Shown one piece after another: positions 3,788-22,715 of a stretch of 23,318 nucleotides of DNA (its first letter is position 1; each line of letters starts with the position of its first letter). The position numbers were made by a program, and so were the translations under genes. The notes beneath the pieces were generated by a model. That model was not told the origin of the DNA. It saw only the letters and a list, made by a program, of their open reading frames with translations, and searched no databases. This DNA comes from a virus, in IMG/VR virus record IMGVR_UViG_3300020436_000098, positions 1 to 23,318 of that record. The stretch is one strand, 5' to 3'.

Positions 3788-3795
3788 TATTTATC
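3788..3795 (-). promoter_or_regulatory. T4-like late promoter candidate (GATAAATA)
   Basis: Read on the minus strand this is GATAAATA, one mismatch from the T4 late consensus TATAAATA. It overlaps the stop of the 181-aa gene. With T4 spacing, transcription would start near 3782, giving a 16-nt leader that holds TTGGAG six bases before the ATG of the 217-aa gene. Both placement and ribosome binding site fit a real promoter, but a single octamer in AT-rich DNA is weak evidence. Confidence 0.5.
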
Positions 3796-11660: not shown

Positions 11661-13421
11661 TTAGAACTCTACAATCAATTTGATATCTTCTGTTTGGTCA
11701 CTGGCTCTACTAATTGGTTTTCTGTTTTCAATGTAAATAATATCCCCAGAGTTTGGTTGCATTTCTGGATTTGAGTATCCAGATGTAAAAACTGTATTAT
11801 TCAAAGTTTGACTATAAGATGTGTCTGGTGTACCAGTTGCAGTACCAGATGCAGCTTCTCCAGTAATTTGACTATTACCACTAAAAGGACTTCTTAACTT
11901 ATAAGTTGCATCTGTTCCTTGATTATCATAAGATGTTTGAACATAAAACAAAATCTTATTTGTTGAGTCCCATTCGACTACAGTTCCTTGTGGTTGAAAT
12001 GTAGTATAAGCTGTTGTTCCAGAATGATTTCCTGTAGGAGCTCTAGAAGAAGTTACCGCATATGAAAATGTAGTTGTACTTGGAACTGCCGTGATATGGT
12101 GTGTTCCTTCGTGACCTGTTCCATTACTTCCATCAAAACTTCCACCAGATACGTCAATCATTTGTCCCACTGCAAGTTGATGAGCTGCAGCTGTAGTTAA
12201 AGTGACAGTAGAACCAGATACAGCTACAGAATTTACTGTTTGTGCAGTATGTGATTGATAAATTTTACCATCAACTTTAAATTCACCTGAGTTTGATGCT
12301 AATCTTATTGCAAAAGTTTGTCTTGCAGTAGAGTTGGTAAAGTTTGATGTTGTACCATTAGAATATGGATTTCTTACAACCCCAACTTGTCTAAAGTCAT
12401 TGACTACACTGAAGTCAAAAGACTCTGTAGTTTGTAACTTTGTGTCCATCATAATGAAATGTCCACCAAGTTCTTTTGCTGGGTTTGAACCATGTCCACC
12501 ATCTGGTGGTATAATAACCTCAAAGGCGGGTTGTGTTCCTGAAAAGGTCAAGTCTTCTGAAAACTGAATGTTATGTTGTTCTATAATATCAGCTGGTAAA
12601 ATACTTGCCTGTGTGTATCCAGTATTTGTTGAAGTAATACTAATTGATTTTACCTTCCCAGCTGTATTGGTAGGACCATCTGATTCTCCGATTACTACTG
12701 TACACAATCCACCTGTACCATCTCCCCTAATAGGAACATTTACGATAGACCTGTCTGAAGTAATATTCCAAGTAGACCCTCCTGCAAGGGCAGTTCCACG
12801 TTCTGTTATTAGAATTACACTTAACCTACCATCAGCTAAGGCTACTCCAGACTCAGCTGCAATTGGAACTGGCATAAAATCTGGAGTAAGAAAATTTTGA
12901 ATGTCTGTGGTTGATAATGTGTACATATACTTTAACGTATATCCACCAGCGGCTTGAGGAACATCACCTTCAAATGTTGGTTCGGCTCCTCCAGCGTAGT
13001 TTGTTCCTCCATTATTATCCAAGACTTTGTACACTCTGTATGCAGATGTTACAAAGTAAAAAGTGGAGTCAAACAGGTTTGTTGCACCAGATGTTGCAGT
13101 GTTTCCTGTAGCATAATTTGGTTTGTACATATCATATGTGGTATTCCCAGATGTATCTAAATCTCTTCTGGGAATTGCGTGAGCTACACCAGTTGATGTA
13201 ATTCTTTTAGCTGCGAGCATATCATCCCAATGTTGGGATTCTTGTGTTCTATTATCATTTGGAGTAGGTGGAGCTGCATCTGTTCCACCTGTAGTTCCAG
13301 ATGCAAACTCGCCAGGTCTACCTATGAAAAGATAGTAGTTGGTAGCTGCAGCTTCTGAGAACGACTCTTTAAATTGCTCAGCGTTATGAAATCTGAATTT
13401 TGAAGTAATTATCGCAGGCAT
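11661..13421 (-). CDS. 8: Baseplate wedge protein gp8-like (586 aa)
   Basis: Homologue of T4 gp8, a dimeric baseplate wedge component. The N-terminus (PAIITSKFRFHNAEQFKESF, then SEAAATNYYLFIGRPGEFA) matches gp8 proteins of T4-like cyanophages very closely. It continues with YTLKYMYTLSTTDIQNFLTPDFMPVP and ends with YIENRKPISRASDQTEDIKLIVEF, both typical of this family. At 586 aa it is much longer than T4 gp8 (334 aa). Part of the excess is a module at about 394-470 (TLTTAAAHQLAVGQMIDVSG, then HEGTHHITAVPSTTTFSYAV) inserted between KVDGKIYQS and QGTVVEWDS. Two purine-rich Shine-Dalgarno candidates (AAGG and AAAGGA) precede the ATG, and an exact late promoter octamer lies at 13446-13453. Confidence 0.92.
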   Translation of the reverse strand: MPAIITSKFRFHNAEQFKESFSEAAATNYYLFIGRPGEFASGTTGGTDAAPPTPNDNRTQESQHWDDMLAAKRITSTGVAHAIPRRDLDTSGNTTYDMYKPNYATGNTATSGATNLFDSTFYFVTSAYRVYKVLDNNGGTNYAGGAEPTFEGDVPQAAGGYTLKYMYTLSTTDIQNFLTPDFMPVPIAAESGVALADGRLSVILITERGTALAGGSTWNITSDRSIVNVPIRGDGTGGLCTVVIGESDGPTNTAGKVKSISITSTNTGYTQASILPADIIEQHNIQFSEDLTFSGTQPAFEVIIPPDGGHGSNPAKELGGHFIMMDTKLQTTESFDFSVVNDFRQVGVVRNPYSNGTTSNFTNSTARQTFAIRLASNSGEFKVDGKIYQSHTAQTVNSVAVSGSTVTLTTAAAHQLAVGQMIDVSGGSFDGSNGTGHEGTHHITAVPSTTTFSYAVTSSRAPTGNHSGTTAYTTFQPQGTVVEWDSTNKILFYVQTSYDNQGTDATYKLRSPFSGNSQITGEAASGTATGTPDTSYSQTLNNTVFTSGYSNPEMQPNSGDIIYIENRKPISRASDQTEDIKLIVEF

Positions 13422-13445: not shown

Positions 13446-13453
13446 TATTTATA
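13446..13453 (-). promoter_or_regulatory. 8: T4-like late promoter (TATAAATA) upstream of gp8
   Basis: An exact T4 late consensus, TATAAATA, on the minus strand in the 45-bp gap before gp8. With T4 spacing (octamer at about -13 to -6), the start would be near 13440, leaving a 19-nt leader that contains AAGG and AAAGGA ahead of the ATG. It lies outside both flanking coding regions, and the downstream ribosome binding site is good. Use in vivo is untested. Confidence 0.65.
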
Positions 13454-16784: not shown

Positions 16785-18791
16785 TTAGTAACCACTAGAA
16801 CTTGAAGAACTACTAGATGAACTAGAACTTGAAGAACTACTAGATGAACTAGAACTTGAAGAACTACTAGATGAACTAGAACTTGAAGAACTATCAGATG
16901 ACGAATTAGTAGATGTAATTGTATATACACTACCGACTCCAGCAGAAGAACTATTTGTTGTGTATCCAACTCCTGCTGATGCAGTTCCTTCTGCATAGGT
17001 ATCAACCTCTGAATTAACTGTACTGTTTACTGTGTCTATTTCAATGACTTGATTTCTTACAGGAATCACATCGTTTGAATCTGGTTTGAGTGTGATATCA
17101 ATTTTACCATCAGAGTTCACTACAGCTGTAATATTGAGAGAAGTCAATACCACTTGTCCTGTACTGTAATTGATTGTTCCAGCAGATGCATTTGTGATTG
17201 TCTTTGTAGTTCCACCCAAGAGATAAAATGTTCTTATAACTCCGTTTCCATCATCATCAATATACTGAATGTTTGTATTGCCTAATAGATAGAATCCTGT
17301 GGACTCAACCACAGTTTGAGAATAATTAGCTACTGGATGAAAAGCTGCGTTATTGAAATTGATTGTGTACTTTGTTGCAGTACTTAACGTAGGAGTTATA
17401 TTCCTTTTTAGTTTTACTGTAACTGTACTTGACAAAATCGCTGGGTCCGTATTATCTAAGGCCTTCAAAATATTTGAATGTCTGAAAACACTATCGAACT
17501 TCTGTAGGTTGTTCGTATTAAAAGATGATATGGTAGTTGTGGCTAATGCCGTTATGTCTGACGCTGATTTTTCGGTCAATGATGGATTATATTTCACTGT
17601 CGTACCTAATACAAGAAAGAGTGTTTCTGGGTCCACTATAACAGGTGTTATTGAGGCTACATTATATTGTTTAAGACTATTGACTATTGTTGTCTTTGTG
17701 GTATCTGTTAAAGTATCTCCAGTATTTGGTTTTATGGAAATGTAAACTTGACCATAAACTGCTGGGTCGTTGTCCTCTCCACCCCAAACTTGAATTGATT
17801 TTATGTTAGAATATACTGTAGGAACTATAGACTTGTAATCATCTGGGGTTACGGCTCTACCTTGTGCAGAATATTTCAAGGGAGCATTAAACTTGATTGA
17901 GTCAACTGATTCCGATGGACTACCACCAGATGCATTGGAAGTTGCTAAGACAGTAACATTTGAATATCCTCCGACTGTAGATGTTGCAGTAAAGGAACTC
18001 GCTCCATCAGCATCATTACCATTAGTTACCACATAATCCAGTAGAACGATATTACCATTACTTAAACTTTTTCCAGTGATACCATCTCCAAAATAAATCT
18101 CAAATCTACCATCCTCAACCTCTTGTAGAAAATATTTTGTGGATGTAGAATTTAAAGAAGTATAATCTGTATTCAGTGTGTAGGTTGTTGTGGTGGTATC
18201 CGTTGAAGAGTTTTGAACTCTTACCAACAGAGTGCTTGTGTCTGCATTTGCAGATGGTATAACAAACTGTTGTTCAAGGTCTGAAGTGTTTACCACATAT
18301 TGAAAAGAGATTCGACTTCCCTCGTAAATTGCTATATCTGAAAAGGTAAATACTCCATTATCAGATGTTGCAGTATGGTCTGAGTCTGTGACAAAGGTAT
18401 ATGAAATGTCGTTGACAGATGTACTAAAAGTTGTTCCTGCAGCTAATGTGAGACTTGTTTGAGTTGTTGGAACGCCAGATACTGTTATGGTAACTATTGC
18501 CTTTGAGGCCTTTACAGATGATGGTGTATAACCTAAAGACTTAGCATGAGATACTGCACTTGCTCTAGTCAGTGATGTATCCAGAAACATTTCGTTTGCG
18601 AGCATATTTGCATGAAACGCTAAGTAATGGGTGTTATATGCCAAAAGGTCCATGAGGACTGACATACCAGACCCCTCAAAGTTGTAATCTGTAAATCCGT
18701 TTTGTTGTGAAAGGAATGTTTGAAAATTAGATTTTACTGTATCAAAATCTAAATCCGTTATCTCTAGTTTTCCTTCAGAATTGATAGCCAT
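16785..18791 (-). CDS. 6: Baseplate wedge protein gp6 (baseplate J family) with poly-serine tail (668 aa)
   Basis: T4 gp6 homologue, which forms the inner wedge ring of the baseplate. The N-terminus has the diagnostic pattern DFDTVKSNFQTFLSQQNGFT, DYNFEGSGMSVLMDLLAYNT, ANEMFLDTSLTRASAVSHAK and LGYTPSS (residues about 15-95). A baseplate-J-like core follows, including YFLQEVEDGRFEIYFGDGIT and GRAVTPDDYKSIVP. Length is close to T4 gp6 (660 aa). The C-terminus is unusual: residues about 628-668 are a Ser-rich tail with 33 consecutive serines ending in Gly-Tyr, encoded by a 27-bp tandem repeat. The ATG is one base after the gp25 stop (TAAAATG), so the two are likely co-translated. Confidence 0.95.
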   Translation of the reverse strand: MAINSEGKLEITDLDFDTVKSNFQTFLSQQNGFTDYNFEGSGMSVLMDLLAYNTHYLAFHANMLANEMFLDTSLTRASAVSHAKSLGYTPSSVKASKAIVTITVSGVPTTQTSLTLAAGTTFSTSVNDISYTFVTDSDHTATSDNGVFTFSDIAIYEGSRISFQYVVNTSDLEQQFVIPSANADTSTLLVRVQNSSTDTTTTTYTLNTDYTSLNSTSTKYFLQEVEDGRFEIYFGDGITGKSLSNGNIVLLDYVVTNGNDADGASSFTATSTVGGYSNVTVLATSNASGGSPSESVDSIKFNAPLKYSAQGRAVTPDDYKSIVPTVYSNIKSIQVWGGEDNDPAVYGQVYISIKPNTGDTLTDTTKTTIVNSLKQYNVASITPVIVDPETLFLVLGTTVKYNPSLTEKSASDITALATTTISSFNTNNLQKFDSVFRHSNILKALDNTDPAILSSTVTVKLKRNITPTLSTATKYTINFNNAAFHPVANYSQTVVESTGFYLLGNTNIQYIDDDGNGVIRTFYLLGGTTKTITNASAGTINYSTGQVVLTSLNITAVVNSDGKIDITLKPDSNDVIPVRNQVIEIDTVNSTVNSEVDTYAEGTASAGVGYTTNSSSAGVGSVYTITSTNSSSDSSSSSSSSSSSSSSSSSSSSSSSSSSSSSSSSSGY
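16794..16901 (-). repeat. 27-bp tandem repeat, four copies, encoding poly-serine
   Basis: Four head-to-tail 27-bp units: 16794-16820, 16821-16847 and 16848-16874 are identical, and 16875-16901 differs at two positions. On the coding strand each perfect unit reads as nine serine codons mixing TCA, TCT and AGT; the fourth unit encodes one Asp among serines. It lies at the very 3' end of gp6. The identity of three units points to recent slippage or unequal recombination, and copy number is expected to vary between relatives. Confidence 0.95.
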
Positions 18792-18792
18792 T

Positions 18793-19218
18793 TTATCTCA
18801 CTGATTCTAGTATTGTTTGAAACTCTATAAGTTCGGTAGGTAAGTTTTCAACGTAAAAATATATACGAACATCATACCGATTTGAATCTGGTACAGGAAA
18901 ACATTCGACTGTCTCAACTCGAGCTCTAGGTTCAAAGTTGAGAATCATCTCCTCTATGTTTCTGGAAAGTTGGTTTCCTGTTATTGGACCAAAATTTTCA
19001 AAGAGTAAGGCGGGGATATCTGAACCAATCTCTGGATGGAATGGTCTTTCGTAGTGATTGGTCAGTAGTAGATTACGAATAGACCTTTTGACTGCATTAA
19101 CATCTGTAACAGTAGCTACATCTCCTGTTACTGGATTGCGAGTAAAGTTCAAGTTCAGGTCTTTGTAGACCCGACTTGACCTTTTTTCGTTTTGTGAAGC
19201 TGCATCGTAACTTGGCAT
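18793..19218 (-). CDS. 25: Baseplate wedge protein gp25 (141 aa)
   Basis: T4 gp25 homologue (132 aa in T4), the GPW/gp25 family sheath-initiating wedge protein. Recognisable segments are VYKDLNLNFTRNPVTGDVAT (about residues 17-36), VKRSIRNLLLTNHYERPFHP, then EIGSDIPALLFENFGP (about 48-83), and EEMILNFEPRARVETVECFP. The ERPFxPxxGSxxxxLLFE motif is the family signature. The start ATG has a strong Shine-Dalgarno, AGGGG, six bases upstream. That site lies inside a perfect inverted repeat and just downstream of an exact TATAAATA, so expression is probably timed to late transcription. In T4, gp25 acts with gp6 and gp53 in the wedge; here it is followed directly by gp6. Confidence 0.95.
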   Translation of the reverse strand: MPSYDAASQNEKRSSRVYKDLNLNFTRNPVTGDVATVTDVNAVKRSIRNLLLTNHYERPFHPEIGSDIPALLFENFGPITGNQLSRNIEEMILNFEPRARVETVECFPVPDSNRYDVRIYFYVENLPTELIEFQTILESVR

Positions 19219-19222
19219 AGTA

Positions 19223-19250
19223 TTCCCCTATGTTATTATTTATAGGGGAA
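19223..19250 (-). promoter_or_regulatory. 25: RNA hairpin sequestering the gp25 ribosome binding site
   Basis: On the minus strand, TTCCCCTAT (19250-19242) and ATAGGGGAA (19231-19223) are perfect 9-nt complements separated by a 10-nt AT-rich loop. The downstream arm contains AGGGGA, the gp25 Shine-Dalgarno, ending 6 nt before the ATG at 19218. Any transcript entering from upstream could fold this hairpin and mask the site. There is no U-run after the stem, so it is not a terminator. Confidence 0.75.
19237..19244 (-). promoter_or_regulatory. 25: T4-like late promoter (TATAAATA) upstream of gp25
   Basis: Exact TATAAATA on the minus strand, overlapping the upstream arm and loop of the gp25 hairpin. 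With T4 geometry the start falls at about 19231, the first base of the downstream arm. The late transcript would then have a 13-nt leader with a free AGGGG. The position in a 39-bp gap and the strong ribosome binding site make this the most convincing promoter in the window. Confidence 0.72.
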
Positions 19251-19257
19251 CTCTAGC

Positions 19258-19554
19258 TTATTCTGATGGTTTAGTATGTAGATCGGTTGATTCCTTATGT
19301 TCTGGGTCATCCTTCTCCTTAAACCAATAATCAGTTGTCTTGGTCAGGACAGCTACATAAGTTCCAATCAGAATATTAATCAAATCCCGATACGTATCTT
19401 GTACTTGTTGAAAAAATAAGACGTAAACTAGAATAAAGAATATTGAGAAAACTATACCACTAATAATAAATCTTGCAGTAAAATTCCACTTCTTTCTTTT
19501 TTCAATGGACCCATGATGGTCATGTTCTCCGTTACCATTTTCTTCTTTTGCCAT
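19258..19554 (-). CDS. Small membrane protein (98 aa), possible holin-like
   Basis: I chose the ATG at 19552-19554 because GGTGGAG lies 5 nt upstream; the frame is open to a TTG at 19593 and has two other in-frame ATGs without such a site. The product starts MAKEENGNGEHDHHG (polar, His-containing), then a basic KRKKW, one clear membrane helix (FIISGIVFSIFFILVYVLFF, about residues 31-50), and a second less hydrophobic segment (LINILIGTYVAVLTKTTDYW, about 60-79) before a charged tail. Two helices and small size are compatible with a holin or other inner-membrane protein. No family is recognised, and the location among baseplate genes gives no decisive hint. Topology from the KRKK cluster suggests N-terminus in the cytoplasm. 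Confidence 0.7.
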   Translation of the reverse strand: MAKEENGNGEHDHHGSIEKRKKWNFTARFIISGIVFSIFFILVYVLFFQQVQDTYRDLINILIGTYVAVLTKTTDYWFKEKDDPEHKESTDLHTKPSE

Positions 19555-21241: not shown

Positions 21242-22578
21242 TAGTTAAAACTCACTGTAGATCCTTTGAGAGTTGCAGCAGCTGCAGCTTCTGCGGCCAG
21301 GGCAGCGGCAGATTTAATTGTTACTGCACCTGTACTATCAATATCCGTAGTGCCTGTGATTGTGGTTTTGAGAGCTGCACTGAAAGTTTCAGTAACATCT
21401 TTAGATACTGCAAGAGTGAAGGTATCTGAATATGTCTGAGATACTGCCTTGGATATAGTTTCTGTGAGTGTATCTTGATAAGTGTGAGTGACTGCACCTT
21501 TGATATCCACTGTCTCTGTTCCAGTAGTTATGGTAGTTGTTCTATTTCCCTCTGTAATTGTCTCTATATAATCTCCCTTTGCAATGACATGAGTAACTGT
21601 TCCTAACTTACTTTCACCATCAGATGATTCACTGGAAGAATCACTTGATGAGTCACTACTATCTGTACGATTTTCTGTACCAGTGCAGTGTATATCCATA
21701 TTTCCATCTACTGTAAGAGAATAATTTCCTTTAACATACGTATCAGAGTTACCACCTATGATAGTTGTCATATTGACGTAATCTGGAGTTTTCAATATTA
21801 CGTTTCCTGTCTTGTCAATCTCAATAAAAGTTCCTGCCTTGTGATATACATGAATACGTTCATTATCTTTTGTGTCATCAATTTCGATATAGTGTCCAGC
21901 TTCAGTTTCAAGAACATGATTAAACGGATAGAGGGAACTAGCTTGAGTTGAAACCGCTTGTTGAATCTCTGTTCCAGAAGCGTTACTCCATTTTGTGTGA
22001 ACTGTGTCATCAACTGTTAGACCACCCTTAACTGTGAAAGATGGATGATGATCTTCCCCTTCTTCTTTGTTAGTATTCCATGTAACCGCCTGTTGAGCAA
22101 TAACATTTGTATCTGTCTTATCAACATAAAGAGCTGTTGGGTATACTGTCTCTTGGTTTCCTGTAGGTTTAACTTCTAAACCTTGGTCCTTAAATCCGCC
22201 CTTTGAGGAATAACCACCAGATGCAGATGAAGCTGCGATAGTATAATTTGTTGTTGATTTGCTATTTTTACCAGGCAATGCACCCATGATAACAGGTTCT
22301 TGTTTAGCTGGATCTCTAAAGAATCCAACAACCCATGTTCCCTCAATGAGAAAATGAGGAGATAAACCTATACCAGAGTTTGCGCCAGCTGTAACTGGCA
22401 TCATAACAGTTGCCCAAGGAAGCGTTGCAGTTGGTATGGCATCCAGACTATCACTATGATAACCTATGCACCTTACTCTAACTCTACCCGCCTTTTGTGG
22501 GTCATTTCGGTCTTCAACGACTCCCACAAACCAATGGAAACCATCTTGACCCATGAAATAAGAAGTATTATCTAACAT
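21241..22578 (-). CDS. 5: Baseplate hub / spike protein gp5-like (445 aa, no lysozyme domain)
   Basis: Central spike of the baseplate. The N-terminal gp5-type OB-fold is clear (MGQDGFHWFVGVVEDRNDPQ, then KAGRVRVRCIGYHSD and LPWATVMMPVTAG, then GTWVVGFFRDP; residues about 9-100). A VgrG-like segment YPFNHVLETEAGHYIEIDDT...IHVYHKAGTFIEI follows at about 214-260, then a Thr/Val-rich beta-helix (about 325-420) and an Ala-rich C-terminus. The lysozyme domain of T4 gp5 is absent, as in T4-like cyanophages. A Ser/Asp/Glu loop sits at about 306-322. I start at the ATG at 22576-22578: the upstream extension to 22644 would translate the terminator hairpin. An alternative ATG is at 22552-22554. AGGA lies 11 nt before the chosen ATG. 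Confidence 0.9.
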   Translation of the reverse strand: MLDNTSYFMGQDGFHWFVGVVEDRNDPQKAGRVRVRCIGYHSDSLDAIPTATLPWATVMMPVTAGANSGIGLSPHFLIEGTWVVGFFRDPAKQEPVIMGALPGKNSKSTTNYTIAASSASGGYSSKGGFKDQGLEVKPTGNQETVYPTALYVDKTDTNVIAQQAVTWNTNKEEGEDHHPSFTVKGGLTVDDTVHTKWSNASGTEIQQAVSTQASSLYPFNHVLETEAGHYIEIDDTKDNERIHVYHKAGTFIEIDKTGNVILKTPDYVNMTTIIGGNSDTYVKGNYSLTVDGNMDIHCTGTENRTDSSDSSSDSSSESSDGESKLGTVTHVIAKGDYIETITEGNRTTTITTGTETVDIKGAVTHTYQDTLTETISKAVSQTYSDTFTLAVSKDVTETFSAALKTTITGTTDIDSTGAVTIKSAAALAAEAAAAATLKGSTVSFN

Positions 22579-22583
22579 ATAGA

Positions 22584-22591
22584 TATTTATC
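22584..22591 (-). promoter_or_regulatory. 5: T4-like late promoter candidate (GATAAATA) upstream of gp5
   Basis: Minus-strand GATAAATA, one base off the late consensus, placed between a strong terminator and the gp5 ATG. With T4 spacing, transcription would start at about 22578, the A of the proposed ATG. The location at a transcription-unit boundary supports it; the absence of room for a leader is a concern. Confidence 0.45.
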
Positions 22592-22606
22592 CTGGCGAGT
22601 AGGCCT

Positions 22607-22639
22607 AAAAAAAGGGGGAACCCAAAAGGATTCCCCCTT
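22607..22639 (-). terminator. Intrinsic terminator downstream of the 182-aa gene
   Basis: On the minus strand AAGGGGGAA (22639-22631) pairs perfectly with TTCCCCCTT (22620-22612) around a 10-nt loop that can form two more pairs, followed by a run of seven T (22613-22607, sharing its first bases with the stem). This is a classic rho-independent terminator. It points left, ending transcription of the 22716-23264 gene before the structural block. No T-run follows it on the plus strand. Confidence 0.88.
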
Positions 22640-22715
22640 CCCAAAAGAGAATAAAAAAATTATGGAAACTTTCGTGGTTAGTTTTACTTCACACTCACGA
22701 CTTGAGAAGAATTAA

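Follow-up and report, generated by a model that had tools for sequence, protein, structure and literature searches.

A predicted T4 lysozyme-type RNA switch in front of the baseplate gene gp25 of a marine T4-like phage

In a marine relative of phage T4, the baseplate gene gp25 is preceded by a perfect inverted repeat that is overlapped by a late promoter box. This raises the question of whether the repeat controls the translation of gp25, and on which messages. The window analysed here is a 23.3-kb fragment of a T4-like marine myovirus (IMG/VR record IMGVR_UViG_3300020436_000098, 23,318 nucleotides). All genes of the window that matched a family are on the minus strand. Descending from 22.6 kb, the order is a gp5-like spike gene, a 270-aa gene, a PAAR gene, a 137-aa gene, a small membrane protein gene, gp25, gp6 and further wedge genes. 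The membrane protein has weak DUF3290/holin-like Pfam matches below the cut-off, and gp6, starting 1 nt after gp25, is presumably co-transcribed with it. Among named phages, the closest in gp25 are Pelagibacter phage HTVC008M (55.8% identical) and Methylophilales phage Melnitz (54.5%). We identified no late-transcription genes on the 23-kb window, which is a fragment; among the genes of the relative HTVC008M are those for a late sigma factor, a sliding clamp and a putative late-promoter transcription factor.

Read on the minus strand, the stop codon of the membrane-protein gene (TAA, 19260-19258) is followed by GCTAGAG, the 5' arm TTCCCCTAT (19250-19242), the segment AAATAATAAC (19241-19232), the 3' arm ATAGGGGAA (19231-19223), TACT and the gp25 ATG (19218-19216). 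The arms are perfect 9-mers around a 10-nt loop, and a G.U pair lengthens the stem to 10 bp. The Shine-Dalgarno sequence AGGGG (19229-19225) lies in the downstream arm, 6 nt from the ATG. The late box TATAAATA spans arm and loop and has 3 nt in common with the 5' arm. These coordinates, including the exact match of the box, are as given in a preliminary description of the locus. Its placement of the transcription start also agrees with the T4 late promoter spacing, in which the box occupies -13 to -6 (PMC2988020): the predicted +1 falls on the first base of the 3' arm (Table 1). On the plus strand, an antisense sigma70-like match (TTGGCA-16-TATTAT, extended -10) runs across the hairpin at 19212-19239; relatives do not conserve its -35 part.

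Table 1. Coordinates of the gp25 hairpin, its promoter and the features around them in the window
Feature	Position	Strand	Basis or remark
gp6 baseplate wedge gene	16785..18791	-	phrog_219, E 6e-186
gp25 baseplate wedge / sheath initiator gene	18793..19218	-	phrog_261, E 1.5e-48; Pfam GPW_gp25
Predicted outer helix, GCUAG with CUAUGC; mask reaches start codon	19216..19256	-	MFE of window
3' arm ATAGGGGAA, contains Shine-Dalgarno AGGGG (19225-19229)	19223..19231	-	sequence and fold
Predicted late transcription start (+1)	19231	-	T4 spacing (PMC2988020)
T4-type late promoter box TATAAATA (-13 to -6)	19237..19244	-	exact match
5' (masking) arm TTCCCCTAT	19242..19250	-	pairs with 19223-19231; near-invariant in 12 relatives
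Small membrane protein gene	19258..19554	-	stop 7 nt before 5' arm
Late box before the gene at 13421, serving as an unmasked comparison	13446..13453	-	late-box match
Late box GATAAATA of the gp5/spike operon	22584..22591	-	predicted +1 = A of ATG at 22578
Strong intrinsic terminator before the gp5 operon	22605..22642	-	-24.5 kcal/mol, U tract

Two RNAs with different leaders would be expected from this layout, and their predicted folds differ sharply. The folding energy is -17.4 kcal/mol for the read-through leader (z -4.35, with no shuffle as stable) and -1.7 for the late leader. Opening the gp25 start region is predicted to cost 18.0 kcal/mol in the read-through RNA versus 2.2 in the late RNA. 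As the preliminary description had proposed, the Shine-Dalgarno sequence is masked in the predicted fold of the read-through RNA alone; the outer helix of this fold masks the AUG as well. Our preferred reading, to which we give a probability of about three in four, is an RNA switch of the kind seen at T4 gene e, acting in cis. In RNA reading in from upstream, 19250-19242 would pair with 19231-19223 and hide the Shine-Dalgarno sequence and part of the AUG, so that gp25 would be poorly translated in vivo. A late polymerase of the gp55 type would use the embedded promoter and start near 19231; such RNA would lack the masking arm and carry a 13-nt leader with a free AGGGG, from which gp25 would be translated.

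The masking was expressed as the opening cost of the translation start in the read-through RNA minus that in the late RNA, for 66 late-box/ATG sites taken from the window, HTVC008M, the first 100 kb of T4 and parts of Mosig and Melnitz. The gp25 site of the window, with a difference of 15.7, is at the top of all 66. The next among the T4 sites are e (13.9), I-TevII (12.9), gene 49 (12.1) and segB (12.0), all of which are named as hairpin-regulated or implicated (PMC3014915); their high ranks indicate that the measure recovers known switches. The T4 survey missed soc, although soc has TATAAATA and predicted structure.

Similar hairpins were seen elsewhere. Melnitz-type phages have a late box within a hairpin before an OB-domain spike gene, with a difference of 15.3 (Melnitz, L313:16310-16360; also L315-L331, L329, L357 and L359). 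Their arms vary in spelling and still pair (CCCUUG/CAAGGG, CCCCUUUG/CAAAGGGG, AAUCCUCUU/AAGAGGAUU); since the arms shift in the alignment, these pairing changes carry no formal count. The stem, often with a U tract after it, may both terminate transcription and mask. On the minus strand of Mosig (L312:42980-43020), an 11-bp perfect inverted repeat, TGTTGCATACA/TGTATGCAACA, surrounds CATAAATA, and the start codon of a putative Asp/Arg hydroxylase lies within the 3' arm.

Taken singly, the parts of the gp25 module are close to what chance provides. Perfect 9-bp repeats whose loops measure 3-12 nt occur four times in the window, against a shuffle mean of 1.3 and maximum of 5, and TATAAATA has two exact copies, the number expected by chance. 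The combined arrangement is not due to chance: when the 35 nt before the box were shuffled, the observed masking was reached in 3 of 2000 trials, and random 35-mers from the same strand reached it in none of 2000. The notion that a conserved promoter merely happens to pair with a G-rich Shine-Dalgarno sequence draws on the three of nine pairs that come free from TAT/ATA and on the single G.U variant. It is the explanation to which we give the least credence, given the shuffling result, the retention of the pairing in 12 diverged relatives with variable flanks, and the mostly unpaired state of other sites that combine this box with ATAGGGGA.

The 12 loci that bear the module (11 and L097) have gp25 genes 74-100% identical. 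Its 27 columns are near-invariant in them, and the flanks differ in sequence and length; fourfold synonymous sites average 54% identity in the 11 members with full context. An outer helix of other spelling is predicted in L009 and L036, and L096 and L099 have the central 18 nt of the module in common and nothing more. Pattern scans for the module at other genes returned genuine matches at gp25 loci alone; in the broader scan, the others among the matches listed were mostly unrelated TTCCCCTATAAATA matches. Rfam gave no match for the gp25 hairpin. Variation is confined to L035-type phages, where one end pair is lost and one C->U change gives a G.U pair. The compensatory changes that the preliminary description would have looked for in the two arms are thus missing from the module-bearing relatives, in which no two-sided change occurs and both single changes belong to one lineage.

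Such strict conservation would also suit a palindrome that works as DNA, for instance as an operator to which a dimeric regulator binds over the late promoter: 28 bp around the promoter are near-invariant, bases unneeded for pairing included. We consider this highly improbable, because one of the two stem changes keeps the RNA G.U pair yet breaks the DNA symmetry. In addition, the bases conserved from the box to +1 form an AT-rich stretch, as would suit a melting region, and are conserved at the unmasked 13453 promoter too.

The distribution of the module separates the mask from the promoter. In the gp25 tree, where single-gene support is modest, the module seems to sit at the base of the group (L097, which was given the label 'nobox' there solely because its contig ends too near the start) and is absent from one subgroup except L026 and L035. 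A sister group (L015-L034), with gp25 79-87% identical to that of the window, is without late box and hairpin and has a stop/start overlap, TAATG; it has lost, or never had, both elements. Beyond the clade, the preliminary description's view that a switch at gp25 is unusually placed does not hold for the promoter: almost every relative at 50-58% identity has one at gp25. In most of these the late box is masked weakly if at all (difference 0-8 kcal/mol), and in about half the predicted start is 0-3 nt from the gp25 ATG. HTVC008M, Mosig, Melnitz and uncultured relatives thus resemble the window in having a TATAAATA-type box directly before gp25, but differ from it in lacking a comparable mask and in being, for about half, predicted leaderless. 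Relatives that keep the box with arms that are not complementary, which the preliminary description had named as evidence against the switch, do exist outside the clade. L106 has the same Shine-Dalgarno sequence and box at gp25 and no masking arm. A late promoter at gp25 is therefore ordinary, and the clade-specific mask is the interesting part.

Two further observations concern these relatives. The distant L040 and L042 have a different, weaker possible gp25 mask, GTCTTT with AAAGAC (difference 8.0 kcal/mol). Many late boxes, at T4 spacing, put +1 on the ATG or at most 3 nt away, which predicts leaderless late mRNAs: 12 of the 19 box/ATG sites of HTVC008M, gp5 of the window (22576-22591), and gp25 in L043, L065, L067-L072, L084 and L088.

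Which message, then, would the hairpin silence? The terminator before the gp5 operon is conserved in five module-bearing relatives (L009, L012, L020, L022 and L035); the L035 stem is spelled otherwise, GGGGAACAC/GTGTTCCCC, yet pairs. It was not seen in the sister-group members checked. Because the gp5 operon begins behind this strong terminator and then a late promoter, RNA reaching gp25 should be mostly late and early read-through is probably rare, which weakens the silencing of early read-through that the preliminary description had offered as the purpose, although the terminator may leak. On module-bearing contigs no mask covers the late promoters at gp5 (leaderless), at the wedge gene (13453) and at 3795 (differences of -0.4 to 4.2), and gp25, with a difference always of 10.1-15.7, is the sole masked late promoter. 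Insulating gp25 and gp6 from the long late mRNA explains the position at least as well as early silencing does. In either case the purpose would be to make gp25 and gp6 depend on their own late promoter and not on the long spike-operon message, be it early leakage or late. In its stricter form, the hairpin would be an insulator within a late operon and no early/late timer, keeping gp25 and gp6 off a late, terminator-guarded spike message, with relatives alternating between insulation and stop/start coupling; we offer this tentatively, as a version that we rather doubt.

The best rival to the switch is translational coupling, in which ribosomes ending the membrane-protein gene melt the hairpin and pass to gp25, so that translation of the long mRNA would scale with that of the upstream gene. 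The stop codon lies 7-10 nt before the arm in all relatives that show it. If the terminating ribosome covers at least 11 nt past the stop, the predicted opening cost drops from 18 to 4-5 kcal/mol, and the direct TAATG overlap of the sister group fits as well. However, T4 e, with a near-identical stop-to-hairpin geometry, is repressed 100-fold (PMC3014915), and a hairpin of this kind would need no late promoter within it. We regard coupling as unlikely.

A stable stem a few nucleotides past a stop codon could also be a 3'-end or processing element of the upstream message (a terminator, stabiliser or nuclease site) and incidental to gp25, and the late promoter in a hairpin followed by U's in Melnitz-type phages lends this some plausibility. 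At gp25, however, the loop is followed by AUAGGGGAAUACUAUG and the stem by no U tract, so that it does not have the form of an intrinsic terminator. The terminator scan did not report the gp25 stem, and its loop limit of 8 nt misses such a stem anyway. The 3' arm is itself a Shine-Dalgarno sequence at proper spacing, and the Rfam result gives no hint of a known element; we judge this explanation quite improbable.

The RNA switch is thus the reading that we retain, and the module is real and probably functional. Its closest known counterpart is T4 e, whose hairpin cuts lysozyme synthesis from the long RNA 100-fold (PMC3014915). In both, the 5' arm and loop of a 9-bp stem are overlapped by an exact late box, the 3' arm contains +1 and the Shine-Dalgarno sequence, and a stop codon shortly precedes the 5' arm. 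The 5' arm is outside the sole conserved promoter element of T4 late promoters. Embedded late promoters in leader hairpins also occur at T4 soc, 49 and I-TevI (PMC3014915). Here, by contrast, the gene is a structural baseplate gene of a marine phage, with spike and late genes behind a terminator upstream, and the switch is a predicted one. T4 gene 25 itself has RNA structure in its translation start region, but of another kind: according to PMC3014915, citing Malys and Nivinskas, the ribosome binding site is split and a stem between Shine-Dalgarno sequence and AUG enhances translation. In the window the Shine-Dalgarno sequence lies inside the stem and its spacing is already 6 nt, which leaves no long spacing for a stem to shorten. 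The same source bears out the preliminary description in treating e and soc as inhibitory and gene 25 as enhancing. We found no masked or leaderless late promoters of marine T4-like phages in the open-access literature.

The masked late promoter at gp25 would thus be the known T4 lysozyme switch in a new gene and lineage, apparently undescribed for gp25. If so, masked late promoters would reach beyond the lysis, capsid and endonuclease genes of coliphages and include a core gene of the baseplate in marine T4-like phages. Should the insulator version apply, baseplate wedge proteins would be made from their own promoter alone and in their own ratio. The masked, coupled and leaderless forms of gp25 offer a natural comparison of how phages set the output of a structural gene.
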